Assembly: GCF_963675165.1 (NCBI RefSeq)
Contig: NC_087379.1
Coordinates: 5,659,442-5,723,441 of the forward strand
Length of the DNA: 64,000 nucleotides
Source of the DNA: Halichondria panicea
Lineage: Eukaryota; Porifera; Demospongiae; Suberitida; Halichondriidae
Direction of reading: 5' to 3'
Positions within the stretch are counted from its first letter, which is position 1, and each line of letters starts with the position of its first letter. The translations under genes were made by a program, and so were the position numbers. The notes beneath the pieces are model-generated. The model saw only the letters and a program-made list of their open reading frames with translations, was not told the origin of the DNA and made no database searches. Below are positions 2,436-64,000 of the stretch, in pieces.

Positions 2436-5400
2436 TTAGTATACTATAGTTCTTCTTGTCTTTTCTTTCTTGTTCCGATTATTATGCTTCCTCCAAGGCT
2501 TTCCCTCAGAGTCAGTGAGTGGGCCTGGTCCCTGTCGAACTACACTTTTCGTGATGACACGAACTTGAGCCTGCATAACAAACATTTTGAGAACATTAAA
2601 ACTTAGCCACTAGTATCCCTTGATTTTACACAGCCTCCAACATTACATGTTATACGCATCAATAGTTATTAAAATCATGCATGGGAGCTTACTTGTCTGA
2701 AATATTCCTTGTCGAATTCACTCTTTGTTCGTGGTACCTGCAAAAGACATTAATATATCAGTAAGGCAGTCTCACAGTACACATCAGCACCTACGAACCT
2801 TGTCTGTACCAGCGGCTTCTTGTGTCACAGGCCCAACGGAGTCATCATCATCACACTGAGACGACTCGACAGAGGTGAACTGGTTGAACAGGGCAAGGTC
2901 GACACCAGGGGGAGGGTGAGAGTAGAGGAGACGGCCGTTCACATAGTCCTTTAGAATGTACCTGGCACTTCTGGGGCCGTCCGGTTGACCGTGGCTCGTC
3001 ATAAACCCTCTGACATCTGCAGAGGAAAATAATACAATATGGAATGCTACATAATATACAGTAGACTCTCGTTAATCCAGTCACCCTTGGGACCATGCAG
3101 CTTGGCCGGAATAGCGAGGTGGCTGTAGCTCAGGAAATAGCCGCGGCTTAAAAACGACCTTACCTCGAATCAAATGACTACTTTTGCGGTTCTTGTCTCG
3201 AGGATAATGTAGGATAATGAATCATTCTGTTCTCTATTTAAGTGTAATCCAATTTTATTTGCTAAACCACACCCAAAACGTCATATCCGGCCGTAAATAT
3301 ACGTATAAAATTACATTGAAAACCTTGTTTGGGACAGCCAGCACTGGCCGGTAAACGGAATAGCGAGTGGCCGTACTTCAGGGTGAGTTTTGTGCAGTAA
3401 ACATATAGCTAGCATTCCGTGCCAAGCCAAATGGCCGGTATATCGAGGTGGCCGTACTTCAGAGAGCCAGAATAGCGAGAGTCTACTGTAATTATGATGC
3501 AACGATCAAAAAGTACCCGGCTATTTGGCATCTAAAGAAACACTTAAAACTCCGAGTATGTATTCCCTAAGAGCTACACTAATGAGACGTAACGCTGTAA
3601 AATTAATGGTTTACAGAGTATACATTTATAGTGACATAATAATTATTATACTTACAGCCATAAGCTCCACATAGCTCCTCAGCATAAGGTGGTCGATCGG
3701 GATCCTCTCCTTCCTGGGGGTGTGGTAGTCTGATTCCGTAGGTCTCCTCGAGGATAGGCCGTGGGATTCGTGAGGCCACAAGGGACACTGGGGGAATATG
3801 GTCCCTCATCTGGTCTATGGGTAGGATCCCGCTCACAACCATCTCCGCTTTGGAGGTTACAAAGGTGGGGAAGACGAGGCCAGGACAATCACACAGGAGG
3901 AGGTTCTCGCTCAGGAACAGGGTCTTAAGTAAGGTGTGTAAGTGTTATGTGTAGTATTGGGTCATAGATGCTCATGTAAAAAAAACTGATAGTGTATCAA
4001 AAAGGATATACCGTATATCTTCTAATTTATCGGACACTTCTAATTACCCCGGACACCCTTTTGGGCTTTGAGTAGCTAGTTTTAGATAGCTAGTGCAACT
4101 ATTCAGTCGCACACTGTTCTATTAAACTTAGCTAGCTCGCATGCAGCTGCTTGCTTGTTCTAGACACTTCCATGCTCTATAAAAATCTGTTCCAATTATA
4201 CCCAGACAATTTCCAAAATAATTAAATTTTGCTGTCCGATAAATTAGAAGATATACGGTAAACACACCACATTGAGTTCACTACAATAACTCACCTGAAA
4301 GTGTTTCGTCCTCCCAGGAGTGGCAGACACTGGGACCTTCTTGCACTGAATGAGGGCATTGATGGTGGAGCTCTTTCCAACATTGGGGTACCCCACCTGT
4401 AGACAATGGAATTATAATTATAGCTTAATATAGACTAGCTTTTATTGTTACTTGAAACCTGTAATTTAAGTACTGCCAAAGAAATTAAACAACCGTGGGT
4501 GCTGATGCCTCAGTGGAGGTGCCAAAGCTGCATCATAAAGCTAATACCGTATAGCGCGAAATTTTTGAGGCACTTCTAAAAGCATTTCGTTGCACAATGT
4601 TCGTGGGATGACTGCTTACCGGAAGCCACGCCTTAATCTTTGTACGTTATAGAAGATAATTCTAATTAAAAAACAATTTTTGTGGACTTAATTTTCATGT
4701 AGGATTGCTAACGAAAACAGCGTGCTATACGGTAATACACATAAATTATATATGATGAACATTTTTGGTTTGCTGCATGCAGGCAGAATCCAGAATCACA
4801 GGGAAACTCAAAGAGTCGGAATCATCGACCATGATTGTTGTTAAAAACTATCGATGCAAAAAGTCCAAGTCTAAAATGAATGGCTGCATCAGCAGAGCCT
4901 TGCAGCTCTCTTCTCACTCTTACAGCTACCAATAGCTAGCGTTTTAGTACAGAGCTAACTACTAAGTAGAGTAGCAACACTCCAGGGACAATTTTTTCTA
5001 TGCACTCTTCTGAAAACGAAAACCTGACTAGAAGCCTATAGAAACTCTTACTTGCACTTCATTGATCCTTGAGCAGCTGTAACGGTCTACACGACAGACA
5101 TACACCTGCACATGCGCACCGAGGCATAATAATTATACTATGCATAGAGCAAAAAAGAATTGGGACAGCAATTTGCTGTCCTTTTGAGCAACTGAAATTG
5201 TCCAAAAAGGAGAGTTCGTAACGATACGAAGATCTACAGTGTTAATACAACGGTCTATCTACAATCACACTTAGTAATAATTATAGGTAACTAACTATAT
5301 CTACATCAACAGTCTACTAACACTCAGTCTCTGAATCAGGACCACTCTCAAAGTGAACGTCTAGATCTTCGAAATCAACATTGTGACAAACATCCTTTTC

Positions 5401-8400
5401 GTAAACCTCTTCAATATACTTTCTTACATTGCAATCTTCCTCACGCTGACGATACTGATATCTCTTTGCTGCTACTATGAAAGCCACAACACCTGCGACT
5501 GAAATAACAATGTTCACCAGGAAATAAACCAGTCCAGCTCGAGGGGAGTCCCACCAGAAACGAAACGGTAAAAGAATTCCAAGAACACCAATCAACTGAA
5601 AAAGTCCTTTAATAGCAAAAAAAATTCCAATGAGAAATCCTTTCATAGAGTGAGGGCTTTGAGCACAGATGAATTCAAACACTCCACCATAGATAAATAC
5701 ATAGGCCACAGCAACAAGGACTTGCTGAATAATGAGAATGAAGGGGCAGAGATGAAGGGTAATATCAACAAGAGTTCCATTATTAGTTGTATAGTTAAAA
5801 TCATAATAAAACTGAGGACCAAACACTGAGCCAGTATTATGGCTGTTAGCGAGAAGGTGACCAATGGTGTCGATAAACAGTGAGCAAAACAGACTAACAG
5901 AGATCAGACAAAGACCAATTCCAATTCGTCTCAAAATACCAGGGAGATACTTGTGGAACAGAGGATAAATAAACTTGAGAAAAATGGGGACAAAAAGAAG
6001 AAGGAACACAGGATACAGAGTGCTACCATTAGTGAACATGGAGTAAACAACGGTGCTAAAACTAATATCATATATCCTAATTAAGCCATTCTCTGCCTCC
6101 ATGTGATTCCTCAGTATATCAAGAAAAGGTGATGCAGCAATATCAGCCGTAAAGAATGGTCCAATTGATAGTAAAATGACAACAATTCCAAAAAACGATT
6201 TCACATTCTCCACTTGCTCGGTAGTGAATGGTCCTCCATACTTGTCCTTGCCTAGATCCAGTCCAGTGGGTATGTCATCCTCCCAGAATGTAAAGGCACT
6301 GCGTTGAATAGGAATCTTGTTTCTTCTTGCAAAGTCGACAACTCTTGCAACCTCTTTGTAAGGATTACCAATGCCAGTGTCAATAACAAACCACCTGCGC
6401 TTAGCAACACAGAAAGTTACTGGTACACAAACTAGCACAACTAACAGGACAAGTCCATATATAGAAAAGCTTAGGAAACCAGTGGCAATAGCTGAACTCC
6501 ATACCAGTTTCCCAAAACATATTCCAATATAGAGTGTGAAGAGAAACCAATGAATGAAAAGAAAGCTGTCTCTAGAAGGAGAATCAGTTAATTGGTCAAC
6601 TCCAAACTGAATAACGTTGGCTAAAAATCCAGCAAATGCAATCCATAAGGATAAAAAATAAATAAATCCAAGAACACCATCAATTACTCCAAGCGAAATG
6701 GCTAAAGACCAGTACAGAGGGTCTACGCTTCTAGTTAACATAATTGGTCCAATAACAGCGTTCACAATACCACCGACAACAATAAAAGTCGTGACTCCAC
6801 ACCACATGGTGCACATACTACATCTCACAACTTTATATCTGCCATACCGAACATCTGCTAAGTATCCGGCTAGAGGATAGAAGAGGAGCCAGATAGCAAA
6901 CACAGCATACACACCACAAGCTAATACTGTATTTTCTGTTAGGCCGAATAAATTCATTACATTGATCATAACTTCAGGATTCAAAAAACCACCATAGATG
7001 AAAGACATTAATGCAGTCCAAAAGAGAATCATTAATCCAGCCTTTGACTTGATTAGCACACTTTCCTTGTTGCCATATTTCCCGTGATTACTTATCACGA
7101 GTGGTGTGGCTTCAGTGGCATCTCTGCTGGCATCTGGTGCAGGAGTTTCATGAAGGGAAGCTTGCTCTATAGTTCCTTGCTCAAAACTTGCCATTGGTCT
7201 TACATGTACGTGAGTGTAGCTACTTGACTAAGTAAAGAAATGCTCACTACATTATGCAGAGTTACACCCATTATAAAAGCAACAATACAATATTAGCCAT
7301 AGCTAATCAGAGAAATCATGAATTCATACGTATGAGTATAGAACTACGGAGGCAACTTTAAACAATGTTAATTACTACTACTACAACGGTTTGCGAGTAT
7401 CACCACCATCTCATTCATGTATGCCTTGACATGGCTACCCCAACAGGAGCTCAACTGTGTCTCCATTATTATTCTATTATATCAAGAGTATGCTTATGAA
7501 AGCAACTACGTAGTTTCCTTAATGGGACCCGCCACTACTGTGGACTCCTTTTGGTAACACCCAACTTATGGGTATTTTCTTAGTTTTGGGAGTATTGCCT
7601 ATTTCTATTCCTTGGAGCTGAATGAGGGCCACCAACACTTACGTGCCGTACTCCCCCAAACCTAATCGCAGTCACGTGACAGAGATGAATGTGTACGTGA
7701 CATCTGCTTAGACAGTACTACTGAGGAGGAAATCTTTCGCTACCTGAAGAATTAAGAGCTGAAATAAACGTTCACCCCTTTCCCTACTTACTTTAGACGA
7801 CTATAGTCGGCATGGCTACCGATAATGTTCAAAAATCATTGTGCATGCCGTGTTGGAGCTATGCGCACGCTGCAGGTACCAGCACATGCGCATTGAGCTG
7901 CTCTTTCACATAGTATTCCTAATATTTTGCTTCGAGGTACAGTTCGATCAAAATCGTCGAAAGAAAAGTGACCGTTTGACAATATCTTCGTAGTGTAACC
8001 TCAGGGAGGTTCTAGGGAAGCTAGACAGTGAGAATATCGATGCCTACGGCCTTGAAGAGTGGGAGGACAGTGACTGGGATCATAGCTAGGTAGGAAGCTT
8101 CCTTTCAAAAGGTCAAGCTAAAAAGAAAGCTGAGCCTGAGAATCCTGAGGACGCATTTGAGGTGGACCATATGTTCTTGGACCTGGTGTAAGTAAGTATC
8201 ATGAGCGACCACTGAACTTGTAAACCTGTGTGTAGGTGAAGAAAATATTTCCCGGGAAAAGGGCGTCTGCTGATAGGACCTCACAGACAAGTTTCTCCTG
8301 ATTGAGCCATGTCACCGTGAGAACATTCTAAATACCTATATCATGTGTTCAGTCACTTCGTAACATCATATAATATTGTTTGTGTTTGTGTGCATAATTG

Positions 8401-11234
8401 TGAATTATTGCTAACAAATGTTAATTGCGAGGTGGTTGGTTGCTAGACAACGATGATGAATCCTTGCGCTGCAACAGGTCCGGTTCTACCTGTGGAACTT
8501 TGTTTAAATACATAGTTTTATGAGTTAAGGATTTTTTAAGCACTTTTAATTAAAGCAAGGAAAGCGGTAGCGGTTAACCGTTTTTAGAACTAAAAAATAA
8601 GTAAATTTTTACACACAAAACAGATTAAAAAATGTGGGCGGGGCTGTGTATTAACTGATTCAGCAATAATTGAAGGTTCCAGTCCTTAATTTGTTACGCA
8701 GTAGCAATACGGTATCAAGATTGATTTACATGCATGCACATAGAAAAAACATCCTGCAATCACTTTTGTACACCAGTATATTTATAGCAGGACATAATAA
8801 TCCAGCCACCCACCATTCCCACTGTAGTGAGCCCCCCGTCTTGTACTGGACTGACAGACAGCAGTAGTTCAACCAACTCCTCTCCAGTTAACAGTCGAGT
8901 GTCTCCTTCTCTGTCATCATCATCACTCACTACGTGGGAACAAAACACTAAATTAGTCAGCGTACAGTGACTGATAAAGTCCTCCAGCGAGGCTATACCT
9001 CGAGAGGTACGTAAAAAATGTATTTTTGTATCCCTAGTGTATGACATAATTATATATGTAACCAGTGGCTTATTAAGTGGACATAGCTAGGGATACATAT
9101 ATATATATTATGTTTACTTTTTGAATCAGAATGGTTTTCCTCTTCAATCGCAGGTTTAGTACTTTTGACTAAAAGCTTCTTGTCATTAGTTTCAATTTCA
9201 TCAAGTGCTGGCTCTACTGCAAAGTTAGTGTCTTGGGTTTCGATTGTTGTAGTCTTTACATCATCAACGGTATCAGTATCTATGGTGTCATTGACAGTGA
9301 TTGTCTGGTCATCCATTGCACATTCATCAGAGGAGGTGGAGTCATGGCGACTAGATGACTCGGAGTCAGGTTCTGATCCTGATTCCAGCATGGGACTCAG
9401 ACTTGGTGAATTCAACAGCTCGAGTTGTTGCAGCCGCTCAGTTTCCATGGTAGCAGACCAGAATGCTACAGTAAGGGACGGACAGTCTTCAGTGAAGTAC
9501 TTGAGCCATTCTTGCCTGCATTATAGATAACGAGCATTAGGTAATAATTATATACCGTATAGAGCACATTGAGGGTATAAGTGTTCGTGGTTTTCGCTGA
9601 TTAAGCATGTATCGCTAACACATTAATTATTTTTATAACCACACATTTAATACTGCAGCTATTCCTCAAAAATTAAATCCGAGAAAACATTTGTAACGGT
9701 TATTCCGCGAAAGTTGTGATACCAATCAGTCAAAATGATATTATTGTTAATTCTCACCGTTGCTTGAGTGTTAATAGGTCGGACTTGCTGATGAGCACTA
9801 CATTCACTTTCTCAGACTTTATTTCCTTCACATACTTCTCCTGGAGAAATGGTACAAAACAATAAGAGATCACAAAACAACTTGTTGAGCTTACCAAATC
9901 TTCACATCGGAAGAGAAGAGGATTTCGTGCATCAACGATCTGCACCACCACATCACTGAGCAAAATACAGCACTCAATCATGTGACAATCCACATCTACC
10001 GTAACACCAAAGGAGGTACGACACGAGTACCTCTATTAGGCTTGGTCACATGTGACTAATCGAGGTACTCGTGTCGGACCTCCTCTGACATAACACTCCA
10101 TCTATCCTAAACGTAATACAAGCATTATAATTATTATTGAATTACCATAATTTTGACGTAACTTTCAGCACTGAACACGCAATAGCTAAACACACTCTAT
10201 CTCGATCATTCTCACCTTCTCTCGATGACCCTCCACAGTTGTCTCCAGAACTCGAGGTTCCTCTCAAATGGAGTGAGGACCAACTTCTCGTTCTCCTCCA
10301 GTACCACGAGGCCCCTCCTCCACTCCAGGAATGAGTCCCTCTCCAACTGGTCCAGCTCTTTTCCTGTTGTCGTGGAGTCCCAGTGAGGCCTGGAGGGGAA
10401 CAAAAACAGAACTTAGTGGCACAACGTGTTACTCTATTCTCTCATTCAAAGGTAGCTAGCAACACCCCATCCCACATTAGGTCTTTTGATAAGTTATAAT
10501 AATGGGCCAAAAACAAGTCTCTCTGTTTATTGCTATAGATTGTGTGTTCGAGGCATAATTATTGTGTGTTCTGATACTATACCTTACCTTCTGGGGATGC
10601 ATAGGAACTCTTGATGATCTTTCTGAGCTTGCTCGATCTCTGCATACTCTGATGCACTGGGCAGACCCGTGTAAACACTAAAGTCCACCACCCGTATATT
10701 CAGCTTCTCTGCAATGACAAAGAATGAGACACAAACCTCCAAACTATATAAACTACTAAGATCGAGTGTAGGCATTAAAATCATTGTGTAGTTTTGCTAA
10801 ATACAAAAATTATGTGCTCTGCACAGCGTACCTGCTGTGAATTCAGTTCCTGCCAGTTTAGCGGTGTTGAGGAACTCGTCCAACCTACTCTCCTCAGTCA
10901 CAGAGCGGAGGTTCAGGCGACCCCACTCGTACCCATCCTCCAACTCACTGCTATGCAACTACAGGGAATTGAATACTCTTTGGTAAGCTAGCTATGTGCG
11001 TCAGACAGAATAGACATTGGTTTGATGATGATAATTGATACATTCTAGCTGGTATTAAAAGTGTAGATATATCTACTATATGCAGTTAGCTATCTCTTGG
11101 ACTTGATATCATAGACAAAGTCTCACCCAACTGTCTGCTTGTGCTTTTCCAGCACCTCTTCTCCTTCTGTTTTTGTCCTTGATGATGGCCTTCCCCAGAC
11201 CAGTCTTCCCACCTTTCTTTCCAGGTTGGCTCAT
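2436..11234 (-). CDS. LSG1: Large subunit GTPase 1 (60S export/maturation GTPase), intact copy A
   Basis: Thirteen exons, minus strand: 11234-11127, 10958-10832, 10708-10588, 10389-10216, 9955-9895, 9840-9758, 9515-9118, 8929-8814, 4396-4295, 3923-3656, 3016-2799, 2737-2693, 2570-2436. Phases agree throughout and give 651 aa (human about 658). It starts MSQPGKKGG at 11234. The GTPase motifs occur in the circularly permuted order typical of this family: DARNPLLFRCEDL near the start of the domain, then ISKSDLL (G4-like), later [10 protein letters not shown] (P-loop) in exon 9 and DCPGL (G3) in exon 10. The C-terminus ends in a basic KPWRKHNNRNKKEKTRR tail. The family releases the export adaptor NMD3 from cytoplasmic pre-60S particles. 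The acidic, Ser-rich insert in exon 7 is poorly conserved, as in other animals. Intron 8 (4397-8813) contains a complete transporter gene on the same strand. A 54-base intron (9841-9894) splits exons 5 and 6. Confidence 0.95.
3059..3488. mobile_element. Tigger/pogo-like MITE in LSG1 intron 10
   Basis: About 430 bases bounded by inverted CAGTAGACTCTCG-type ends, with a TA on each side as expected for Tc1/mariner-superfamily insertion. The interior repeats the motif GGCCGTACTTCAG. Two other copies lie at 50417-50835 and 62823-63224. No coding capacity. It is absent from the matching intron of the second LSG1 copy (56012-56187), so it inserted after that duplication or was lost there. Confidence 0.8.
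4009..4260. mobile_element. MITE, TACCGTATATCTTC ends, in LSG1 intron 9
   Basis: Inverted ends of about 28 bases (TACCGTATATCTTCTAAT at the left, its complement at the right end 4260) enclose 250 bases of AT-rich non-coding sequence. It belongs to a wider set of elements in this window whose termini begin TACCGTA. Confidence 0.75.
4545..4734. mobile_element. Short TACCGTATAGC-type MITE in LSG1 intron 8
   Basis: About 190 bases starting TACCGTATAGCGCG and ending GTGCTATACGGTA, so the ends are inverted repeats. No open frame. It lies between LSG1 exon 9 and the nested transporter gene. Confidence 0.65.
5317..7194 (-). CDS. POT/PTR2 (SLC15)-like transporter, copy 1, nested in LSG1 intron 8
   Basis: Single exon, 625 aa, starting MASFEQGTIEQ; all six paralogues share this start. 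Roughly 12 hydrophobic segments. Family evidence: GYLADVRYGRYK (about residues 110-121) after the second to third membrane segment matches the MFS/POT loop motif, FGVDQLTDSPSRDSF (197-211) matches the PTR2 signature FGADQF...SFF, and the cytosolic stretch DLGKDKYGGPFTTEQVE (313-329) resembles the central loop of plant and animal POT proteins. The ExxER proton-coupling motif normally in helix 1 is not visible, so the substrate and coupling ion are unknown. The N-terminus has an acidic EATPLV segment reminiscent of endolysosomal sorting signals, and the C-tail is acidic (DLDVHFESGPDSETEC). The gene lies wholly inside an intron of LSG1 on the same strand. Oligopeptide or histidine transport is the family role; for this protein it is inference. 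Confidence 0.85.
   Translation of the reverse strand: MASFEQGTIEQASLHETPAPDASRDATEATPLVISNHGKYGNKESVLIKSKAGLMILFWTALMSFIYGGFLNPEVMINVMNLFGLTENTVLACGVYAVFAIWLLFYPLAGYLADVRYGRYKVVRCSMCTMWCGVTTFIVVGGIVNAVIGPIMLTRSVDPLYWSLAISLGVIDGVLGFIYFLSLWIAFAGFLANVIQFGVDQLTDSPSRDSFLFIHWFLFTLYIGICFGKLVWSSAIATGFLSFSIYGLVLLVVLVCVPVTFCVAKRRWFVIDTGIGNPYKEVARVVDFARRNKIPIQRSAFTFWEDDIPTGLDLGKDKYGGPFTTEQVENVKSFFGIVVILLSIGPFFTADIAASPFLDILRNHMEAENGLIRIYDISFSTVVYSMFTNGSTLYPVFLLLFVPIFLKFIYPLFHKYLPGILRRIGIGLCLISVSLFCSLFIDTIGHLLANSHNTGSVFGPQFYYDFNYTTNNGTLVDITLHLCPFILIIQQVLVAVAYVFIYGGVFEFICAQSPHSMKGFLIGIFFAIKGLFQLIGVLGILLPFRFWWDSPRAGLVYFLVNIVISVAGVVAFIVAAKRYQYRQREEDCNVRKYIEEVYEKDVCHNVDFEDLDVHFESGPDSETEC
7195..8813. other. 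Rest of LSG1 intron 8, 5' flank of transporter copy 1
   Basis: Presumably holds the transporter promoter: the first 100 bases upstream of its ATG (AAAGAAATGCTCACTA, then GCAGAGTTACACCCATT) are shared with the flank of copy 6 at 58654-58740, and the GTTACACC motif with copies 4 and 5. Beyond that I see no gene. A short plus-strand open stretch near 8000-8070 (LEEWEDSDWDH) is not supported by splice context. Confidence 0.5.
10011..10084. repeat. Perfectly placed hairpin in LSG1 intron 4
   Basis: Arms AGGAGGTACGACACGAGTA and TACTCGTGTCGGACCTCCT flank a loop around GGCTTGGTCACATGTGAC, with about 27 paired bases per arm and one or two mismatches. It lies between the exons ending at 10216 and starting at 9955. 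It may be a small foldback element. Confidence 0.8.
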
Positions 11235-12171: not shown

Positions 12172-12293
12172 TGATCGCCAATTGCATTGCTAAGCTCCTT
12201 GGATCCTTGCACTGAATGAGGAGATTGATGGTGGAGCTCTTATGTGATCGCCGATTGCATTGCTAAGCTCCTTGGATTCTTGCACTGAATGAG
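12172..12293 (-). pseudogene. LSG1: Two scraps of the LSG1 P-loop exon
   Basis: A 60-base unit (GATCGCCAATTGCATTGCTA ... TTGCACTGAATGAG) occurs twice in tandem; the first copy continues into GATTGATGGTGGAGCTCTT. TTGCACTGAATGAGG...TTGATGGTGGAGCTCTT is the complement of the LSG1 exon encoding [12 protein letters not shown]. No frame survives. Confidence 0.65.
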
Positions 12294-12471: not shown

Positions 12472-14653
12472 ATTTTTTTTTTTTTTTTTTTTTTTCTTTA
12501 TAATGTTTGATGCAGAGGAAGCATACAGGATATGACAAGGTAGCTAAATGAAGCTAATAATGAAGTCAGTCCATAACCAAAAAGTAAAGGTGCAGGTGCA
12601 GGTATACTTAAGTGAAAAAAAGAAAAAAGGAAAAAAAATTTTAACTTATTGCTATAATTTTGACAGGGATAATTTAAAAGCAGATGGGCTAGGGCTACTG
12701 ATAACATTTAGGGGAAGGGAATTCCAAATGGGGATTACGCTTACAAAAAAGGAATGTCTATGGGCTAGGGTTTTAACATATGGTTTAAAAATAATTTGAT
12801 TATGAGGGTGACGGGGGGAAGGGCGAGGATGGAGGGTGAAAACATTGGGAGATATTATAGATAAATTATTAAGTATATTAAAGCAGACTTTCAGTTTTTG
12901 GTTTTTCCTTCGAGATGACAGAGGTTTCCAGTTTAAGGAGGCAAGCAGGTCAGGGTATTCTGCCCTCCACTGCTTCGTTACAATTTTCCCTGCAAATTTT
13001 TGGACGCTTTCCAGTTTTTTTATATCTGTGTGGTGATGAGGGTCCCAGACTGCACCGCAATAGTCTAACTTAGGCAGAACAGCCGTGCGGTAGATCTGGT
13101 TCCTGATCTGAGGTGGTGATTTATGGAACTTGCGATGGATGAAGCCAAGATGTTGTTTGGCCTTCTTGCAGGTGTTGTGTATGTGACATGCCCATTTTAG
13201 ATCATTATTGATAGTAACACCAAGGTACTTTACAGTATCACATGGGGAGATCCTATGGTTGTTTATATCTATATTCATTGGGATAGTGCGTGTAGAGCGA
13301 GTTATTGTAAGCAGTTTGGTCTTGGAGTGGTTTGCTGTGAGGCCGTGAGATTGCATCCAGGAGTTTATTTCATTGACGTCTCCCTGTAGGTCCTGAGTTT
13401 CAATTGTCGAGTTTATGGGCTTGTAGAGAAGGATATCGTCTGCGTATAGAATGAGTTTGGCATTGGTGGACAGGTTGATGTTAGCAATTGAGTTCATGAA
13501 AATGTTGAATAATAGCGGTCCTAAGATTGACCCTTGTGGGACACCTGAGGTCACTGCAACAGGGTCTGACATAGTTCCCTCCAGGACTACCCTTTGCTCT
13601 CTGTTGGTAAGATAGTCTTTTATCCAATGCAGTAGGTTGCCACAAATGCCTACGACTTGGAGAGAGGATATGATCTGTGGGTGGGGTACTGAGTCAAATG
13701 CTTTCTTGACGTCAAAGAACACAGTTGCCACTTGGTGATCATTTTCTAGAAGTTTGTGCCAGCCGTTAGTGACAGATAGGAGGGCTTCTTGAGTTGAGGA
13801 TTTTGGTCTGAAGCCAAACTGGCAGTTTGACAGGAGCTTGTTTGAGTATAAGAACTTTGAGATTCTCTTGTGTACAATCCTTTCCAGAGCTTTTGAGATT
13901 AATGATAGGAGAGATATCGGTCGGTAGTTGCTAGGAGAAGTTGGATCCCCATCCTTCGGAATAGGAGTAACATTGGAGACTTTCCACAGGTCAGGGACTC
14001 TGCTTTGCTTGAGCGATCTATTGAATATCTTGGTGATTGTTGGGGAAATGGCAGTAGCAGTCCCTCGGATCATCTGGCTAGAAATGCCATCCGGACCGGA
14101 GGCAGTATTTGGTTTGCAAGAAGATAAGAGATGGTGGACTTCCTCTTGGGTGCACTCAATGTCACTGAGTGAGCAGTTAGGTGTTGACATTTCCTCAGGA
14201 GTACTGCAGGATGCAGTTGGTGAGGTAAAGAATGAGGCAAATGCACTGTTCCAGCATGTCAGCTTTTTCGAGCGAGGTTGTTGCTGTAGAATTATTGTTT
14301 TTCAGTTCAGCTGGTGTCCTGTTTTTTGACGGAGAGAGTTTGTTGTATGCTGACCAGAAATCTCTCGGGGAATTCAGTTTTCCTGCTAGGCACTTAAAGA
14401 ATTTGGATTTTGCAGATCTCAGGGCAGCCAACGTTTTGTTCCGAGCACTGGTGTACTTGGACCATGCTAGCTCTGATTTGAGTAGCTTAGCTTGTTTGAA
14501 GAGTTTGAGTTTTCTTTTAACAGCATTCATGAGGTTGTTTGTAAGATAAGGTAGACGATGCCTGTGTTTGATGGTTTTGGATGGGATTGTTTTATTTGTG
14601 GATACTGTCAGTAAAATAAACACGTATACTATTTTGTATTCTAATTTTAGTGG
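12472..14653 (-). mobile_element. 5'-truncated non-LTR retrotransposon (LINE), minus orientation
   Basis: A run of about 23 T at 12473-12495 is the poly(A) tail of a minus-strand insertion, and TCCGTGT on both sides (12465-12471, 14654-14660) looks like a short target-site duplication. The element encodes only the region linking endonuclease and reverse transcriptase plus the reverse transcriptase; the endonuclease is absent, as is usual for 5'-truncated copies. It sits inside the left part of the larger DNA transposon. Confidence 0.85.
12652..14190 (-). CDS. LINE reverse transcriptase (partial ORF2)
   Basis: 512-codon open frame. Reverse transcriptase blocks are easy to see: SGPDGIS, PIPKDGDP followed by NYRPISLLS, FGFRPKSST, the catalytic VFFDVKKAFDSVPH, SGVPQGSILGPLLFNIF and LYADDILLY with the YADD catalytic core, then KYLGVTI. 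The order and spacing fit the Jockey/CR1/L2-like branches of non-LTR elements; I cannot place the clade. Upstream sequence to about 14623 (with LNSPRDFWSAYNKL, the usual linker before the RT) is in another frame, and the frame changes near 14255, so a small indel has broken the ORF. Not a host gene. Confidence 0.88.
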   Translation of the reverse strand: MSTPNCSLSDIECTQEEVHHLLSSCKPNTASGPDGISSQMIRGTATAISPTITKIFNRSLKQSRVPDLWKVSNVTPIPKDGDPTSPSNYRPISLLSLISKALERIVHKRISKFLYSNKLLSNCQFGFRPKSSTQEALLSVTNGWHKLLENDHQVATVFFDVKKAFDSVPHPQIISSLQVVGICGNLLHWIKDYLTNREQRVVLEGTMSDPVAVTSGVPQGSILGPLLFNIFMNSIANINLSTNAKLILYADDILLYKPINSTIETQDLQGDVNEINSWMQSHGLTANHSKTKLLTITRSTRTIPMNIDINNHRISPCDTVKYLGVTINNDLKWACHIHNTCKKAKQHLGFIHRKFHKSPPQIRNQIYRTAVLPKLDYCGAVWDPHHHTDIKKLESVQKFAGKIVTKQWRAEYPDLLASLNWKPLSSRRKNQKLKVCFNILNNLSIISPNVFTLHPRPSPRHPHNQIIFKPYVKTLAHRHSFFVSVIPIWNSLPLNVISSPSPSAFKLSLSKL

Positions 14654-14683
14654 TCCGTGTTACACACTTTACATATAGCAAAG

Positions 14684-18366: not shown

Positions 18367-18416
18367 TGATGAGGGCATTGATGGTGGAGCTCTTGCCAAC
18401 ATTGGGGTACCCCACC
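18367..18416 (-). pseudogene. LSG1: Fragment of the LSG1 P-loop exon
   Basis: Complement encodes [15 protein letters not shown], nearly identical to exon 9 of LSG1 (4396 downward), preceded by its CAG acceptor. The rest of the exon is missing: the sequence changes at 18366. It marks the left edge of a duplicated unit whose transporter remnant starts at 18803. Confidence 0.85.
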
Positions 18417-18802
18417 TGTAGACAATGGAATAGTATTTTAGTTATTGTTGCTATACTAAAACTACCTTGTCTAAAATTGTTTCACTACAATATTGTCCCA
18501 TGGGAGAAGTCATACAAAAGGTCACAACTATTGGTGTTAGTTTGACCTTCATAAAGTTGTCATAACTTTGTCATATTTCACTGAAATTCAAAGTTTCATA
18601 TACCATTGGATTCCTTGTTAAAAAGCGCTTCTATTGATATGCTGTAGAGCTGGTAAGCTCCAACCAGCTAAGAGATAACATTTTCCATGCAGAAGTCCCA
18701 GGAATACTTGTCCACCACATAAAGCATAAATGAAGCCATAATTGACCACATAACTTCTGGGGCTGAACACAATGCAAATAGATTATTTCAACAAATTTAC
18801 CA

Positions 18803-27150: not shown

Positions 27151-27151
27151 C

Positions 27152-43930: not shown

Positions 43931-43963
43931 AGTTGTGACTTAAGAAAATGAATAGCATGCATA

Positions 43964-46695: not shown

Positions 46696-46889
46696 CAAAC
46701 TGACAGAATGCTAGCTAGCTAGATCTACTTAGCCAGCTTTACAGGCTAAGCAGAGATACATGTATACAAACACTACACATGGGTGAAGGTAATGCCCATG
46801 TGCAGTCCTAGTCTCGCGAGCCATTAGTGATTTTGCAGGTATGGCCCACGAGACTATTGCAGTCTCTCTTTTACCCACGCAGCCACTTG

Positions 46890-47966: not shown

Positions 47967-48004
47967 TACAAAAAAGTAGAAGATGTTATTCCTTTGCTCG
48001 CTCC

Positions 48005-51000: not shown

Positions 51001-51018
51001 CGTACTGATTATCATTAA
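48005..51018 (+). CDS. PTCD1: Pentatricopeptide repeat protein, PTCD1-like
   Basis: Exons 48005-48358, 48446-49309, 49440-49556, 49738-49917 and probably 50911-51018; all GT-AG and phase 0, about 540 aa. PPR repeats are clear: ADAVVYNSLIAGYGRSGNVE, PTDHTYTSMLSACAEAG, LDLYNFNLLLQCLRDAGLEG, and later VPNEHVFETLIGNAARS. The family binds mitochondrial RNA and affects leucine tRNAs and 16S rRNA/ribosome assembly. The 5' end is uncertain: the frame is open upstream of 48005, where the first codon used is TTG, and there is no in-frame ATG between the transposon end at 47966 and residue 80 or so. KILAAVLRTLSLCNKLSSKS looks like part of a mitochondrial presequence. The last exon (RQLNGFKGYYSIWKEMM) is assigned from phase and splice signals only, across an intron containing a MITE. 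Confidence 0.75.
50417..50835. mobile_element. Tigger/pogo-like MITE in the last PTCD1 intron
   Basis: CAGTAGACTCTCGTTAATCC at the left, its complement GAGAGTCTACTG at the right, TA on both sides. About 90% identical by eye to 3059-3488. Confidence 0.85.
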
Positions 51019-52732
51019 ATGAACTCGTTATGTCTCATCATGTATTGTCAATTCAGTTTCATTCAAGCATATGTGTATCAATTTTGACATTGGAGCAAAG
51101 TTTGCCAATAATGAGCACAAATTAATGATATTATATAAATCGGTGGTGATCGAAGGACTGATTCTAGAGATGCATAACACACACACATGCATAACACACA
51201 CACAGCTGCACAACACTAACAATGAACTCCTAACAAGTTGAGCACTGGCTACTTCCAGAGAGATTTTAGCATTTTCTTGGCTGATAGTCTTGAGAGAACG
51301 AGAGTGGCTACGAACATGCCCACCACCACTGCACTGATGAGAGTGTAGTCAAAGTCCTCGGCTAGGAGATCAAATTGATTGGACGGAGTCACTCGAGTGT
51401 AGTAGAGATCTGTACAGTGTGGGTGTGGGTGTGGGGAGGTTAGGTGAAAGTATAAGTTTCACTATTATATTATATACGTAAGAGTACTGAACGTTTTATT
51501 GCAGTGTATAACAGTAGGATATTGTTTTGCTATACAATTATAGCATAGTGCTTGTCTAAGCAGTTTTCTGTAACAGTGTTTCGCTCACCAAGTCCACAGA
51601 CAAACAGTAGACAGGTGGACTCAAGCCCACTGGGTGTAGCGTAAATTTCTCGTATCCTCGCAACGGTGCGGTTGTAGTTGACGAAGCTAAGAGGGTTGAA
51701 TGGAATCTCGGGATGGTAGGGAGGAGTCCCGTCCTCCCTGCATGGAGGGAGAATAAGAATAGATAATAGAGCGCATACTGTAACTAGAAGCCTACAGAAG
51801 CTCTTAGTTACACTGTTAAGCAGTTACACCCACACAATGCACCATGTAACACCACCGAGGCATAATTAAAGGCTTCACACACAGAGTCAACCAGCAAGTC
51901 ACTCACTTCATTTGGTCAGTGATCTCCAGTTCTCTGCGATGGTTCAGTAGAGACTTGGGCATGATCACCACTCGACCAGACGCAAGACCAACTGCAGAGG
52001 AGGGAGAGAAGCACCAGTTATTAGCACTAGATAACACTTAGCAACAGAAAGCTTTATGCACTCTTTCAGCAAATGCTCCACAAAAAGCTTTGCATGATGA
52101 TAATGCATTAGTTTTGTGCATGTATTGTACAGCTATGTTAGTATTATAACTATACAGACACGGCATGTACATGTAGTACTGACAGTACAGTGTACTAAAG
52201 TCTATACGGGATTAGGTAGGTACTCACAAATAACTCCCTTGTAAGTGATTCCCCTGAGAGTTTGTGTGGTTGTGAGGGTGGTAATGGTGGTGGGAAGAGT
52301 GTAGGCCTGTGACATGACAGCGGGAGTGGGGGGAGGGGCCAGCGACGACCAAACAGTGCTATAGGGAAGAGAAATTGTAGTCAACACATTGATAGCACTT
52401 CACAAATAAGTCGGTGCATACTGCTATGAGTGACGAACATGCAGCATCATGTGACGTACTGTGATTGGTTGGTGTGTATTTCGTAGAGCTCTAGAACCAC
52501 TAATTCATGGCGACGCTGCTTGCTGTTGAAGAACTCATACTGTAAGAGGAGGCAACAAAGATAACTATAGAATGCAGCTAACAATGAATGTAATAACAAT
52601 ACTACACTGTAAAATATGCATACTAAAGTCTTGTATTGAGTTTGACCTTCATAAATGTTGTCATAACTCGGTCATACTTCGCTGAAATTTAAAGTTCACC
52701 TATCTATAATTATGCTTTAGAGTAGCCTCGAT

Positions 52733-53337
52733 TCCAGGCCAATCTTCCTCAAAGAGAAGGCCTGGTATCAACTGTTTGCGCATGCGCTATCTATTACCCA
52801 GAAACTGGGTAATTTGGATAACATCGTATAATGATGTAATAACATAACAGTAAAACAATGACGTCACAACGAACAGAAGTGGATTGAAGAAAGTAGATAG
52901 AAGTTCGATTGTGAAGGTTTTTAGCCTATCTGATAGCATTTCTAATAGCTAGCCTTAGCCTGTTATGTTAACAAAAGACTCACAGCCTGCAACAGTGTGG
53001 ATGACAATCGTCTGAACAGAGTGAAGGCTGACAATAGCCTATACGGACAGGCCACGCCCATCTGCTACTAACCTTGGTGAAAGTCTACATGTAGAATCTA
53101 TCAGAAAGAAATAGCTGCTGTAACCAAACGTACTACAGCTCTGTCTCTAGCTAGCTAGCTATGTAGCTCTGTGTATGACTTTAATATTATGAATTTGTAT
53201 TCTTTGTCTGTACACTTATTCAGGATATTTTTTCTGGTAAAATTTATGAAACTTTACGGGGAAATTGTCCAATAATTTTGCGCATGCGCTAGCAGTCAGT
53301 AGCAGGCCTCCTTGTTGAGGCCTTGTGAAGGAGGCTA
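52733..53337. mobile_element. Non-autonomous element, TAGCCTCG ends, in EMC1 intron
   Basis: TAGCCTCGATTCCAGGCC at the left and CCTTGTGAAGGAGGCTA at the right. The 9-base repeat GCTTTAGAG flanks it (52724-52732 and 53338-53346). It retains GCGCATGCGC near both ends like the 5.3-kb element. Non-coding. Confidence 0.75.
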
Positions 53338-53643
53338 GCTTTAGAGCTGATAAGCGAGTGAAAATGAAAAACATTTGAAGCACCTGTTGCAAAGATAACA
53401 GAAACGGTACAAAAAGATAACTCACAACAACCCAGTTCTCGGAGTGAGCCATGTGCACCGGGGCCCCAGGGCATTCTTGTGAGAGGTGTGGTAGATGATG
53501 GCCCCAGTGATACTGTCTATCAGGTACACTGTCACTAGAGGTTTGGTCCAGTCTGTGGACTCTGTGACCACACCCACCAGATTAGGGTTGAGATACTTGT
53601 ACTGTACGTTGCTGACGTGCTCTGCAGAACAGCGACGTTACAT

Positions 53644-54411: not shown

Positions 54412-55685
54412 CTGAAGAAGCACACACTCATCACCAATCACATACTCATCAATAGAGGACGGGGGCGTAGCCAGGATTTTAGGGAAGATATATACATGTA
54501 TACTGTATTTAATTGATTAAACGCCTGGGCGTTTATTTCCTAGCATCAATCTTAAGTCGTAGGAGTGGTGTTTCTCCTTCTATGTCCTCTCTGCCATCAT
54601 AAATAGTATCTATGCTGCCATTGTTTCAGCTGGTTCCACATGCTAATTCAGCTCAACCCACAGTGCCACACCCCATACATGGGCGATTATTTAAGAGGGA
54701 CGTTTATTGACAAAGACAGCTTTTATTATGGACGTTTAAACGAGATGGGCGTTTAACCAAGTAAATATGGTAGATGAAAGAGGGCGTGAAGCGCCGGATT
54801 TTTAGCCGCACAGTGCCGAAATTTTGTTGACTAGAAACTATGCATGTCTCTTATTAATGACGTCATAATTAACTTATGCCAAGCTGGCTTCAAATCGCTA
54901 GCATTTTATAGGTCCCGGGGGTCCCAAAATAAGGGGGGGCCTATAATCGCTTCTACACCAGTAAAGGATCACTTCAGGTGCAAATAATTATGTAGATATA
55001 CCTCGAAAAAAGTCGCGTGTAGCCAATGTGTGAGTTTAAGCTTCTTGTCCTAAACTTAAGGCATTCTAATTCCAGCGAAAAAGAGAAGTCTAAAGATGTT
55101 GCCTCTACATGTCTTAGCTTTTATACAACAACGAAGCTTTAACTCGAAATCTGCCACAATTAAAACTAATAACTTGTTGTGTGAAGGCTATCCATGCTGT
55201 AAACGCAGTGCTATGGCATCCGGGTAAGTAGACTCACATGTCACACACAGACAAACAAACAAACCAAAGTACTACCAGAAGCCCATAAATATGAGAAGGA
55301 GCGGCTGACTACGGGGATCACATTTCGTAAGTGGCTACGACCGCATTTCTATAATACAATGTAATTTATGAAGAGTCACTAAGTGGTTGAATCCCTACAT
55401 GTCTTATATGCAATACAGGGCTGTGGTTCGCAAGCACTTAGTCGCTTCCATAAAAGGAAACCAGCAATTACGAAACATGATCCCCGAATGTACGTTGAAG
55501 ACAGCCGCTCCTTCTCATATTTATGGGCTCCTGGTACTACTATACTCGTGGCCGCCCATGCACACCTCGGGTAACAAACAAACCAAACGACTACTATACC
55601 CGCTGGCCGCAGGTAATGAATTTATGCCATTGACTTTACATATAGCCTCAACATTACATGTTATGTATTAAAATTATGGGAGCTT
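54412..55685. other. No gene; inverted repeat at 55269-55540
   Basis: Between the EMC1-like and LSG1 copies. GTACTACCAGAAGCCCATAA ... GGAGCGGCTG (from 55269) is repeated in reverse complement ending 55540, arms of about 38 bases around a 195-base interior. Similarity to the first LSG1 copy begins at about 55645 (CCTCAACATTACATG), so the terminal LSG1 exon is not present here. Confidence 0.55.
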
Positions 55686-56802
55686 ACTTGTCTGAAATAT
55701 TCCTTGTCGAATTCACTCTTTGTTGGTAGTACCTGCAAAAGACATTAAGATATCAGTAAGGCAGTCTCACAGTACACATCAGTATCTGCGAACCTTGTCT
55801 GTACCAGCTGCTTCTTGCGTCACAGGCCCAATGGAGTCGTCATCATCACACTGAGATGACTCGACAGAGGTGAATTGGTTGAACAGGGCGAGGTCGACAC
55901 CAGGGGGAGGGCGAGAGTAGAGGAGACGGCCGTTCACATAGTCCTTCAGAATGTACCTGGCACTCCTGGGGCCGTCCGGTTGACCGTGGCTCGTCATAAA
56001 CCCTCTCACATCTGCAGAGGAAACAAATATAATATAAATGCTACATAATACATAGAAAGTACACAACACTTCCCTATCTGGCATATCCAAAAAGACCATT
56101 TAAGTATGAATTCCCTAAGAGCTACACTAATGAGACGAAACACTTTAAAATGGTTTACAAATTGTACATTTATAGTGACATACTTACAGCCATAAGCTCC
56201 ACACAGCTCCTCAGCATAAGGTGGTCGATCAGGGTCCTCTCCTTCCTGGGGGTGTGGTAGTCTGATTCCATAGGTCTCCTCGAGGATAGGCCGTGGGATC
56301 TGTGAGGCCACGAGGGATACTGGGGGAATGTGGTCCCAAAGGTGGGAAAGACGAGGCCAGGACAGCCACACAGGAGGAGGTTCTCAATCAGGAAGAGGGT
56401 CTTAAGTGAGTGTGTGTGTTGTGTGAAGTGTTGGGTAATGTACAGCATAGATGATCATGTGTGATACAAAAAGACAGAAAATATATACACACATTGAACT
56501 ATAATAGCTCCACCTGAAAGTGTTTTGTCCTCCCTGGAGTGGCAGACACTGGGACCTTCTTGCACTGAATGAGGGCATTGATGGTGGAGCTCTTGCCGAC
56601 ATTGGGGTACCCCACCTGTAGACAATGGAATTAGAGTATCTAGACAATTGCCTTTATTGTTGGTGCTTATGTACATACCCAAAATTGGAGCAATTATATT
56701 ATCCAATGTCCTAAAGCAAAAAGTTTATCATCAATACAAACATACAGTGGATAGCAATCGATATAATAATTACACAAAAAATGGCTTAGACAGCTTAAAC
56801 TA

Positions 56803-58653
56803 TTAACACTCAGTCTCTGTATCAGGACCACTCTGAAAGTGAACGTCCAAATCTTCAAAATCAACATTGTGACGAACATCCTTCTCGTAAACTTCTTCAA
56901 TATATTTTCTTACATTACAAAGTTCATGATACCTCTTTGCTGCCACTATGAAAGCCACAACACCTGCGACTGAGATCACAATGTTCACCAGGAAATAAAC
57001 CAGTCCAGCTTTAGGGGAGGTCTGCCAGAAACTAAACGGTAAAAGAATTCCAAGAACACCAATCAACTGAAAAAGTCCTTTAATGGCAAAAAAAATTCCG
57101 ATGAGAAATCCTTTCATAGAGTGAGGGCTTTGAGCACAGATGAATTCAAACACTCCACCATAGATAAATACATAGGCCACAGCAACAAGGACTTGCTGAA
57201 TAAAGAGAAAGTAAGGGCTGAGATGAAGGGTTTGATCAAATACAAATCGGCCACGTTCATAGATAATCTTGACAGGAGCAAACACTGAAGTAGCATTCTG
57301 GCCACCAGGAAGACAGTGACCAATTGTATCAACAAAAAGTGAGCAAAACAGACTAACAGTGATAAGACAAAGACCAATTCCAATTCGCCTCAGAATACCA
57401 GGGAAGCACTTTTGTAACAGAGGATGAATAAACTTGAGAAAAATGGGAACAAAAACAACGAGAAACACAGGGTAAAGAGTGGTACCATTAGCGAATATGG
57501 AGTAAAAATTAGCCTCCGTCTCTGTATCCATGTGATCTTTCAGTATATTAAGAAAGGGTTCTGCAGCAATATCGGCCATAAAAAATAGTCCTAGTGCAAG
57601 AAAAATAAAAACAATTCCAAAAAATGATTTCACATTCTCCACCTGCTCAGTAGTGAATGGTCCTCCATACTTGTCCTTGCCTAGATCCAGTCCAGTGGGT
57701 ATGTCATCCTCCCAGAATGTAAAGGCACTGCGTTGAATAGGAATCTTGTTTCTTCTTGCAAAGCCGACAACTCGTGCAACCTCTTTGTAAGGGTTACCAA
57801 TGCCAGTGTCAGTAACAAACCACCTACGCTTAGCAACACAGAAAGTTACTGGTACACAAATCAGCTCAACTAACAGGATAAGTCCAAATATAAAAAGGCT
57901 TAAGAAACCAGTAGCACTAACTGCACTCCATATCAGTTTTCCAAAGCTTATTCCAATATAGAGTGTGAAGAGAAACCAGTGAATGAAGAGAAAGCTGTCT
58001 TTAGAAGGAGAATCATTTAATTGGTCAACCCCAAACTGAATAACATTGGCTAAAAATCCAGCAAATGCAATCCATAAGAGTATAAAAAAAAGAAGTCCAA
58101 GAGCACCATTCACTACTCCCACTGAAATGATGAAATTGGGGTAAGGTAAATGTATCAAAATTGGTACCATAATAGCATTTACAATGACACCGATAACAGC
58201 CACAGTCAAGAGTCCACACCACATGGTACACACACTACATCTCACAACTTTATATCTTCCATATCGAACATCTGCCAAGTATCCAGCTAGAGGATAGAAG
58301 AGGAGCCCGAAAGCAAATACAGCATATATACAACTACCTGTCACCCCATTGGTGAGATAGCTAACTTTTAATGGTGACGTTACAGTAATAATGTTATAAT
58401 TTCTCAAGAGGAAATCGAGTAAGAAATAGTTTTCAGGAATCAGAAAGGTGCCGTACACAATAGACATTAAAGCAGTCCAAATAAAGATCATTACTGCAGC
58501 CTTTGACTTGATCAGCACACTTTTTTTCTTGCCATATTTCTTGTGATTACTTGTCACGAGTGGTATGGCTTCAGCGGCATCTCTGCTGGCATCTGGTGCA
58601 GGAGTTTCATGAAGGGAAGATTGCTCTATAGTTCCTTGCTCAAAAGTAGCCAT
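56803..58653 (-). CDS. POT/PTR2 (SLC15)-like transporter, copy 6, nested in LSG1 copy B
   Basis: Single exon, 616 aa, MATFEQGTIEQSSLHET to SGPDTETEC. About 12 hydrophobic segments; GYLADVRYGRYK, FGVDQLNDSPSKDSF and FWEDDIPTGLDLGKDKYGG are present. The loop after helix 1 is longer and different (NYNIITVTSPLKVSYLTNG) and the RQRD segment before ELCNVRKY is deleted in frame. It lies in intron 8 of LSG1 copy B, exactly as copy 1 does in LSG1 copy A. The 5' flank to about 58750 is shared with copy 1 (AAAGAAATGCTCACTA, GCAGAGTTACACCCATTnTAAAAGCAA) and is then cut by the palindrome at 58761. Family role: proton-coupled oligopeptide transport; substrate here unknown. Confidence 0.85.
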   Translation of the reverse strand: MATFEQGTIEQSSLHETPAPDASRDAAEAIPLVTSNHKKYGKKKSVLIKSKAAVMIFIWTALMSIVYGTFLIPENYFLLDFLLRNYNIITVTSPLKVSYLTNGVTGSCIYAVFAFGLLFYPLAGYLADVRYGRYKVVRCSVCTMWCGLLTVAVIGVIVNAIMVPILIHLPYPNFIISVGVVNGALGLLFFILLWIAFAGFLANVIQFGVDQLNDSPSKDSFLFIHWFLFTLYIGISFGKLIWSAVSATGFLSLFIFGLILLVELICVPVTFCVAKRRWFVTDTGIGNPYKEVARVVGFARRNKIPIQRSAFTFWEDDIPTGLDLGKDKYGGPFTTEQVENVKSFFGIVFIFLALGLFFMADIAAEPFLNILKDHMDTETEANFYSIFANGTTLYPVFLVVFVPIFLKFIHPLLQKCFPGILRRIGIGLCLITVSLFCSLFVDTIGHCLPGGQNATSVFAPVKIIYERGRFVFDQTLHLSPYFLFIQQVLVAVAYVFIYGGVFEFICAQSPHSMKGFLIGIFFAIKGLFQLIGVLGILLPFSFWQTSPKAGLVYFLVNIVISVAGVVAFIVAAKRYHELCNVRKYIEEVYEKDVRHNVDFEDLDVHFQSGPDTETEC

Positions 58654-58760
58654 TAATGTCTTACATGTACATGCAGTGAGTGACTAATAAAGAAATGCTC
58701 ACTAAATGATGCAGAGTTACACCCATTTTAAAAGCAATTCAGATCAATACAGCATTTAAG

Positions 58761-59584
58761 AGCATGATGAATTTAATTATGATCTGTGACATCATAATTA
58801 CTACCTGTTTTACTTCCGTAGTAAAAATGTGCTGAGCTGGCATGCTGTTTACTATGAAGTCAATGTAAAATCATTGCGTTTTTGCAGCCTCTGCATTCTG
58901 CAATATAAGCGCTGTTATTCTAAATAAAGGAAGTTTGTGAAATATTGAAATAAGAGCTACACAATGGTTTTTGTCCCAGAGAGTGATTGTCAACTGTCAG
59001 TGAGCTCGCTAGCCTTGAAGATACCTACTACATACACAGTAAGTGCAGTATAGAGCAGCAGTAGTAGATCTAGAAGACAAACTACTGCTCAAGGGTGATG
59101 GAACGCAACAACTACATTGTAGGCATCTGCAGAATTAGGCAGATGTGGTGTTCCATCATGTCCATCTTGAGCATTTATAGTTTGCAGATCTAAGAGGCAA
59201 CTAATGCTCAAGGATGATGGAACAACACATCTATTCTGCAGATACCTACCGTGTAGCAGTGGTGGTCCACCATCCTTGAGCAGTAGTTTACCTTCTAGAT
59301 CTACTACTGCTGCTCTATACTGCACTTACTGTGTATATAGTAGGTATCTTCAAGGCTAGCGAGCTCACTGACAGTTGACAATCACTCTCTGGGACAAAAA
59401 CCATTGTGTAGCTCTTATTTCAATATTTCATAAACTTCCTTTATTTAGAATAACAGCGATTATATTGCAAAAACGCAATGATTGACTTCATAGTAAACAG
59501 CATGCCAGCTCAGCACATTTTTACTACGGAAGTAAAACAGGTAGTAATTATGATGTCACAGACCCTAATTAAATTCCTCATGCT
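58761..59584. repeat. 0.8-kb palindrome upstream of transporter copy 6
   Basis: Left arm 58761-59100 and right arm about 59270-59584 are inverted copies over more than 300 bases with few differences (ACTACCTGTTTTACTTCCGT, GTCCCAGAGAGTGATTGTCA and AGTAGTAGATCTAGAAG occur in both). The central 170 bases contain a second, direct repeat (GATCTA.GA.G.CAACTA.TGCTCAAGG.TGATGGAAC). No protein. The left edge is only about 110 bases upstream of the transporter start codon. Confidence 0.9.
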
Positions 59585-59779
59585 CACGAGCATGCTGACT
59601 ATAAAAGGGCGTGCCGTGGGCAGCTCAGACCGGAAGCAACCAAAAAATGACAAAATGGCAACAATGAATATTCTTGAGTCTTGCAAAAAGACGCCCTTGA
59701 CAGTTATAATGCACATTCTTTACATTTTTACATTCTTCTTTTGATATGCCTTCTTCCGCTCTCTCACGAGATAGTAGAC

Positions 59780-60533: not shown

Positions 60534-60580
60534 ATAGTAGACACAACAAAAATGGCTGTCAAAAGTTTATTTCAAGAAGC

Positions 60581-63585: not shown

Positions 63586-64000
63586 TACATACATACAGAA
63601 ATTGCAATCACTTTTATCACACAAGTATAGCGGAACATAATAATCCAGCCACCCACCATTCCCACTGTAGTGAGCCCCCCGTCTTGTACTGGACTGACAG
63701 ACAGCAGTAATTCAACCAACTCCTCTCCAGTTAACAGTCTAGTGTCTCCTTCTTCATCGTCATCACTCACTACATGGAAAAAAAACTAATGTAACCATGC
63801 AGCTTACAGTGATAATGAATGTATCTCTAGAGTACATGCAAAATGCATTTTTGGGTCCCTAGCTCCACTCAATAAGCAACTGGTTATGTACAAAATGTAT
63901 GACATAATTTATAAGTATTTATATATAAGTTCCTTTTTGAATCAGAATGGTCTTGATCTTCAACTGAAGGTCTAACACTTTCAACTGGAGGCTTCTTAGC

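Follow-up and report, generated by a model that had tools for sequence, protein, structure and literature searches.

A transporter gene nested in an LSG1 intron and the tandem array of host and guest pieces to which it belongs in the sponge Halichondria panicea

Nested genes that duplicate together with their hosts are already known. In vertebrates, an LRRTM guest entered the intron of an alpha-catenin host and the host–guest pairs were then duplicated; in frogs the host ctnna3 was lost and the guest kept, and lrrtm4 was suggested to have once been nested in a catenin gene that has since disappeared (PMC3933685). Here we describe a locus of this kind in the demosponge Halichondria panicea, in which a transporter gene lies inside an intron of LSG1 at one end of a long array of transporter copies and LSG1 exon pieces. 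The window analyzed is a 64,000-nucleotide stretch of contig C3 (NC_087379.1; C3:5659442-5723441) in a genome of 131 Mb and 39 contigs. Like the LRRTM/alpha-catenin system, the sponge locus presents host–guest pairs that were duplicated and hosts that were sometimes lost; unlike it, with its three pairs, opposite-strand guests and separate loci (PMC3933685), the sponge guest is on the strand of its host, the copies form a local tandem array, and the host remnants can still be read.

Two further systems invite comparison. The insect TipE genes form a small family in a host intron, and nesting was escaped in some species, but that cluster sits in one host and the abstract of its report does not mention host exons duplicated along with it (PMC3240667). 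In fish, omp is nested in capn5, with nested gene and host neighborhood duplicated together and non- and sub-functionalization of the nested copies thereafter; there, however, duplication was of the whole genome, two sets resulted, and the guest is reverse-oriented (PMC13378369). A large local array with host exon remnants is a new variation on a known theme, and no description of an LSG1-nested transporter, of this locus, or of a similarly large local array of that type appeared among the papers listed in searches of the open-licence PMC library. Its interest would lie in a gene family grown by tandem copying of a host-plus-guest unit, where host exons serve as position markers that allow unit boundaries, exchange and decay to be traced, as is seldom possible in ordinary tandem arrays. 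It would also illustrate what nesting can cost or offer, in that the site of a housekeeping gene may seed an unstable array of ~190 kb.

LSG1 is such a housekeeping gene, essential in yeast. Copy A occupies 2436-11234 on the minus strand and is complete, its 13 exons (joined by eye at consensus splice sites) giving an intact frame of 651 aa with no internal stop. From the 3′ end of the gene, exon 13 lies at 2436-2570, exon 12 at 2693-2737, exon 11 at 2799-3016, exon 10 at 3656-3923, the P-loop exon 9 at 4295-4396, exon 8 at 8814-8929, exon 7 at 9118-9515, exon 6 at 9758-9840, exon 5 at 9895-9955, exon 4 at 10216-10389, exon 3 at 10588-10708, exon 2 at 10832-10958 and exon 1 at 11127-11234. Human LSG1 (PDB 6lsr) aligns with residues 12-648 of the 651 (E 2.7e-191); a 44-residue piece of exon 7 finds no match in the PDB. 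Among the 50 matches listed in an LSG1 protein search of the genome there is no second complete exon set. Transporter A, a single-exon POT/PTR2 open reading frame (ORF) of 625 aa on the minus strand, spans 5317-7194 and is thus placed inside intron 8 by the exons 9 and 8 that flank it; it lies wholly within one host intron and on the strand of its host, as a nested gene does. An earlier sequence-only reading of this DNA had put a transporter in intron 8 twice, and rightly so: transporter B (56803-58653, minus, an open ORF of 616 aa) sits between exon 9 (within 56503-56625) and exon 8 (within 63647-63777) of LSG1 copy B. The 3′ exons of that copy cover 55678-56625 on the minus strand, with exon 12 at 55678, exon 11 at 55786 and exon 10 at 56180-56410, and its 5′ half enters the window at 63603-64000, also minus, with exon 7 from 63930 and the exons up to exon 1 running past the window's edge to array position 65914 (the coordinates of the 3′ exons include 10-base flanks).

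The array continues past the window to about C3:5,855,745, ~194 kb in total. LSG1 segments were mapped over 201 kb (the window and the next 137 kb), and array coordinates above 64000 continue the window numbering. Copies A and B included, the array holds 29 transporter loci, 22 exon-9 places, 12 places that match exon 10 (three of them recurring 28-bp fragments) and nine places with exon 8 or its edge. Not counted among the 29 are an inverted partial transporter copy at 114627-115414, to the left of which stands an exon-9 remnant, and small fragments at 25833, 27155, 92381 and 120885; apart from that partial copy and three of the short fragments, which are inverted, the array runs mostly head to tail. 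Fourteen transporters have an exon 9 no more than 1.1 kb to their left, and none has one that close on the right. Random shifts gave a mean of 3.6 on the left, and none of 20,000 reached 14 (P 5e-5, from hand-compiled locus lists and only a guide, because the null ignores the kinship of copies that arose by later block duplication). Going left from an exon-8 place, one meets the first transporter after 0.4–5.6 kb in eight of the nine cases; in the ninth, copy C, it is 16 kb off. Exon 10, exon 9, transporter and exon 8 follow one another as they do in intact LSG1. At six loci besides A and B the closest LSG1 remnant to the left is exon 9, with a piece of exon 8 to the right; two of these six sit in blocks that are 98.9% alike.

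We consider it very probable that the transporter became nested in LSG1 intron 8, that host–guest stretches were then tandemly duplicated and exchanged, and that the hosts decayed while guests were kept more often. A single-exon transporter of the POT/SLC15 family would have come into intron 8, an insertion that we infer. Unequal exchange or local replication errors would have copied intron 8 with its transporter and at least one flanking LSG1 exon, mostly head to tail; that such stretches were duplicated is shown by exon 9 and 10 remnants to the left, and exon 8 to the right, of same-strand transporters. Later rounds would have duplicated larger sub-blocks or lone transporters, and the mosaic similarity of the copies shows that they exchanged sequence. 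LSG1 A has kept its 13 exons; the other LSG1 copies have decayed through deletion, frameshift and splice-site loss, and guest copies have been retained more often than host copies.

The nesting in intron 8 most likely preceded the duplications, because LSG1 exons flank the transporters on both sides in gene order and in one orientation, and because DNA matches to the exon-8 edge, exon 9 and exon 10 occur in the array alone. Genome searches listed 16 matches for exon 9, 11 for exon 10 and six for the exon-8 edge (up to two mismatches; none for a reversed-pattern control), all within the array. Three weak matches among the 50 listed by the LSG1 protein search fall outside it, two on C7 (the better at 65% over 40 aa, E 4e-10) and one on C13 (E 4e-4), and we take these for candidate other GTPases of the family. 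The opposite order, a transporter array into which LSG1 exon pieces were later inserted or shuffled, for example carried by a mobile element or exchanged via the transporter repeats, would suit the recombination among transporters, the partial agreement of exon-9 and transporter trees, and the lack of a nearby exon 9 at roughly half of the transporter loci. It appears quite improbable nonetheless, given that within 1.1 kb exon 9 occurs on one side only, that exon-8 pieces keep to the other with the orientation and order of the intact gene, that several units retain two exons in order, and that POT clusters elsewhere have no DNA match to the exon-8 edge, exon 9 or exon 10 beside them.

Those other clusters, on C5 and C2, share ~55–61% identity in their best matches and branch outside the array clade in a tree that takes in 23 of the array's 29 loci and leaves out six fragments (midpoint root, with the long C5 and C2 branches flagged by the program). 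The genome searches yielded no LSG1 exon-8-edge, exon-9, exon-10 or protein match near them. The position of these clusters and the lack of LSG1 matches nearby make it most likely that the transporter family is older than the nesting. A single exon cannot be read as proof of retroposition, and we rejected it as such, since distant family members on C8 and C13 likewise consist of one long frame. Two transporters at C3:5.37 Mb were tried as an outgroup and rejected because both cluster with array copies: the first is sister to the copy at array 187465 (100/100), and the second is placed with weaker support (87/85). Near them blastn found no LSG1 exon at E 0.01, and tblastn gave matches at chance level (E above 5). 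As they group with array copies and show no LSG1 exon in these searches, they most likely originated in the array and then left it. Also discarded, as a sign of common origin, was the stretch of intron that separates exon 9 from the transporter: part of it, 4811-5129, belongs to a repeat present genome-wide, with at least 76 matches (40 of 2780 candidates scored), and the occurrence of that repeat near the C3:5.37-Mb transporters accounts for the intron-8 match there.

Several observations weigh against so orderly a history. Some transporters stand without LSG1 pieces, 15 of the 29 have no exon 9 inside 1.1 kb on the left, and transporters A and B differ by 15% where their flanking LSG1 exons differ by 0–9% (the exon-10 gap uncounted). 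Others emerge when exon-9 and transporter copies are set side by side (distances for 8–15 pairs and trees for 11, from the 22 exon-9 places), a comparison that the sequence-only reading had proposed as its check, with conflict between the trees as the refuting outcome; such conflict is seen in part. The trees of 11 pairs share three of eight splits (P 0.0028), in favor of joint descent. The distances, however, are not significantly correlated in Mantel tests (r 0.07 and 0.11 for 11 and 15 pairs, P 0.32 and 0.32; r -0.31 and -0.38 for 9 and 8 pairs, P 0.92 and 0.96), and one supported exon-9 pairing, p66699 with p181694 (91/93), is at odds with the transporter tree. Exon 9 is a short sequence, and in two of the 11 pairs the transporter lies more than 5 kb from its exon 9. 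Recombination is evident among 13 transporters, where the incompatibility of site pairs is 0.287 at distances up to 30 bp and climbs to 0.431 past 800 bp; within 100 bp the value is 0.312 against 0.379 after permutation, and none of 500 permutations was as low. Because the transporters recombine and the trees agree only in part, the linkage between host remnants and their neighboring transporters was probably broken more than once.

The same evidence qualifies the proposal that the duplicated unit was the host gene plus its guest. LSG1 exons on both sides of transporters in one orientation bear it out, but there was no single unit: some remnants keep exon 10 to the left of exon 9, others share unrelated sequence there, and 15 of the 29 transporters are without a nearby exon 9 on the left. 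Six units, at array 22565, 66543, 110923, 134756, 141972 and 181535, have a common sequence left of exon 9 that is unlike intron 9 of copy A. In copies A, B and C alike, the spacer right of exon 1 leads to an exon-9 copy, and this spacer is 94% alike between B and C over 813 bp and 76–85% alike between A and B in two pieces. Larger blocks were copied later than the first units. Blocks 98363-107930 and 123797-133407 are 97.5% alike, and blocks 158022-169548 and 189419-201000 are 98.9% alike. This last pair, 11.6 kb each and 31 kb apart, together with the match of array 43927-46894 to 162667-165744 (99.4–99.5% in two pieces), is what might be expected if much of the array were an assembly artefact made of uncollapsed haplotypes or mis-joined repeats. 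We regard that as highly improbable, as the 11 transporters compared differ by 3–20% (most pairs by 14–18%), the units bear different gaps and insertions, and copy A and most of the window units are independent of the 99% blocks.

What became of the hosts is less uniform than wholesale decay to fossils, the fate claimed for them in the sequence-only reading. Retention of the guest over the host agrees with 11 of the 29 transporter loci being near-complete ORFs (reaching from residue 1 to 604 or further, out of 625), with the broken state of LSG1 B and C, and with the remaining LSG1 copies, which are fragments; the erosion itself is uneven, and exons 1-6 of B and C have hardly changed. LSG1 B retains exons 1-9, 11 and 12. 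It has lost the GT donor of exon 7, keeping splice dinucleotides at all other checked sites, and its exon 10 carries a 55-bp frame-breaking deletion and an Asp-to-Gly change in CDCPG, which removes the aspartate of its DxxG motif; exon 13 was not found in the mapped 201 kb. LSG1 C retains exons 1-8 with all checked splice dinucleotides; a deletion has taken 10 bp from its exon 2, and no run of exons 9-13 stands beside exons 1-8. The near-unchanged exons 1-6 (B at array 64558-65914, C at 179495-180910) show 0–4 substitutions per exon relative to A besides the gap in C exon 2: seven synonymous and no amino-acid differences between A and B, and seven and two between A and C. Exon 7, by comparison, has 20 amino-acid changes between A and B and 19 between A and C, and the introns of the three copies differ by ~1–36%, the closest pair changing from intron to intron.

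The little-eroded 5′ halves of B and C argue against a simple history of host decay; they may reflect gene conversion, a recent loss or continued function. Were B and C kept for a function of their own, as a truncated protein or a regulatory transcript, the host too would have diversified, and exons 1-6 without a single amino-acid difference between A and B beside introns that differ by up to 35%, with only one splice dinucleotide lost among all those checked, could be read in that light. We think this unlikely. Copy B is without its exon-7 donor, the exon-10 frame, the aspartate and exon 13, copy C has its exon-2 deletion and no exons 9-13 in sequence, and the patchy identity of the introns points to gene conversion, which would likewise keep exons alike.

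The guests, for their part, are recognizable members of the POT family. All six long transporter ORFs in the window match Pfam PTR2 (PF00854) at 39–64 bits against a gathering cut-off of 27, transporter A with E 5e-14, and a sequence search with transporter A finds SLC15A4 (E 2e-17) and then SLC15A3 as its nearest solved relatives. The structural model, of modest confidence (mean predicted local distance difference test score, pLDDT, 58.8; predicted template modeling score, pTM, 0.62), has the 12-helix fold of the major facilitator superfamily; its nearest PDB match is SLC15A4, and its top 16 fold matches are SLC15 members. Sequence, fold and an above-cut-off PF00854 match thus all align it with the SLC15A4/SLC15A3 (PHT) branch, although identity to SLC15A4 chains is 17–20% in the fold alignments listed, and the sponge transporter has been copied many times. 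ExxER is the usual proton-coupling motif of POT helix 1. None was seen by eye in the helix-1 region of 15 aligned transporters, and we therefore make no claim of proton-coupled peptide transport; the array proteins are most likely SLC15A4-like transporters with varying exposed or substrate-facing surfaces.

Across the 78 pairs of 13 array copies, the median ratio of nonsynonymous to synonymous divergence (dN/dS) is 0.49 (0.32–0.85). Mean dN in 40-codon windows peaks in three stretches (residues 73-97, 138-174 and 450-486), and there is another rise at 351-389. With helix numbers assigned by us from the predicted model, the peaks fall at or beside the loops between helices 1-2, 3-4 and 9-10, and the rise at or beside the 7-8 loop, all of which presumably face away from the cytosol by POT topology. 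Residues 450-506 reach a dN/dS of ~1.27 and other windows stay below 1. For diversifying selection there this is suggestive but falls short of proof, because dS varies along the gene (0.07 to 0.8), as expected with conversion. A bolder proposal is that nesting itself drove the expansion, the host–guest repeats in an essential gene acting as a recombination-prone generator of diversity that goes on yielding transporter variants through unequal exchange and conversion and on which selection draws, with exposed loops (450-506) under diversifying selection while one LSG1 stays intact. We hold this to be doubtful; if true, array variants might serve varied microbial or dietary substrates.

The window itself displays the array piece by piece, on the minus strand unless stated. 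The P-loop remnants named in the sequence-only reading, at 18369, 22704, 29291 and 38147, are all present, and others can be added. Right of copy A exon 1 lies an exon-9 remnant at 12206-12241 (94% over 36 bp), followed by one at 18369-18425 (98% over 57 bp), a degraded transporter at 18802-19450 and transporter 2 at 19707-21524 (open ORF, 605 aa). The exon-9 remnant at 22704-22792 (86%) precedes transporter 3 at 22959-24845, the long frame of which begins at copy A residue 59, DNA similarity to copy A extending upstream of it and out of that frame. An exon-8 donor-edge remnant, on the intron 8 side, lies at 26826-26855. It is followed by a rearranged block at 27126-27499, consisting of a 28-bp exon-10 fragment (27126-27153), an inverted transporter fragment on the plus strand (27155-27227) and an exon-9 remnant (27390-27499), with similar blocks at array 92352 and 120856. 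An exon-10 remnant with an internal gap (28909-29115) and an exon-9 remnant (29291-29402) then lead to transporter 4 at 29972-31738, which matches copy A to residue 581 and has an altered C-terminus. Beyond the exon-8 donor-edge remnant at 37382-37411, exon-10 (37752-37909) and exon-9 (38147-38217) remnants precede transporter 5 at 40766-42643 (open ORF, 625 aa); this exon 9 is weak, at only 68% and E 3e-5, and lies 2.5 kb from its transporter. The last remnant before copy B, at 45992-46079, includes part of exon 8.

Other occupants of the window deserve brief mention. To the left of the array, at 600-2230 on the minus strand, is a TRAP-gamma (SSR3-like) gene (PF07074, E 2.7e-52; exons joined by eye). 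Intron 10 of LSG1 A holds a repeat element (3055-3490) with further copies at 50415, 62818, 75373 and 177293. Between array units, a reverse transcriptase ORF at 12652-14659 on the minus strand (PF00078, E 4e-45) and an adjoining long frame mark a retroelement. Remains of a DNA transposon at 34360-35913, minus, with TNP-like RNase H and GTP-binding insertion domains, come after transporter 4 and before the exon-8 remnant at 37382; the long ORFs that flank them (32585-33715 and 35914-36561) match no Pfam family. The stretch 43927-53643 contains a plus-strand pentatricopeptide-repeat ORF (48422-49321; PF13041), and beside that ORF are minus-strand exons, to 54430, in three pieces without a Pfam match, which we take to be EMC1-like. 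As portions of the same stretch are found again at array 162667-171220 and 194101-199606 (93.7–99.5%), passenger genes were copied too. Finally, intron 8 of copy B holds a long inverted repeat at 58760-59585, with arms of 240 and 105 nt that are 93–97% complementary, which may be a mobile element.

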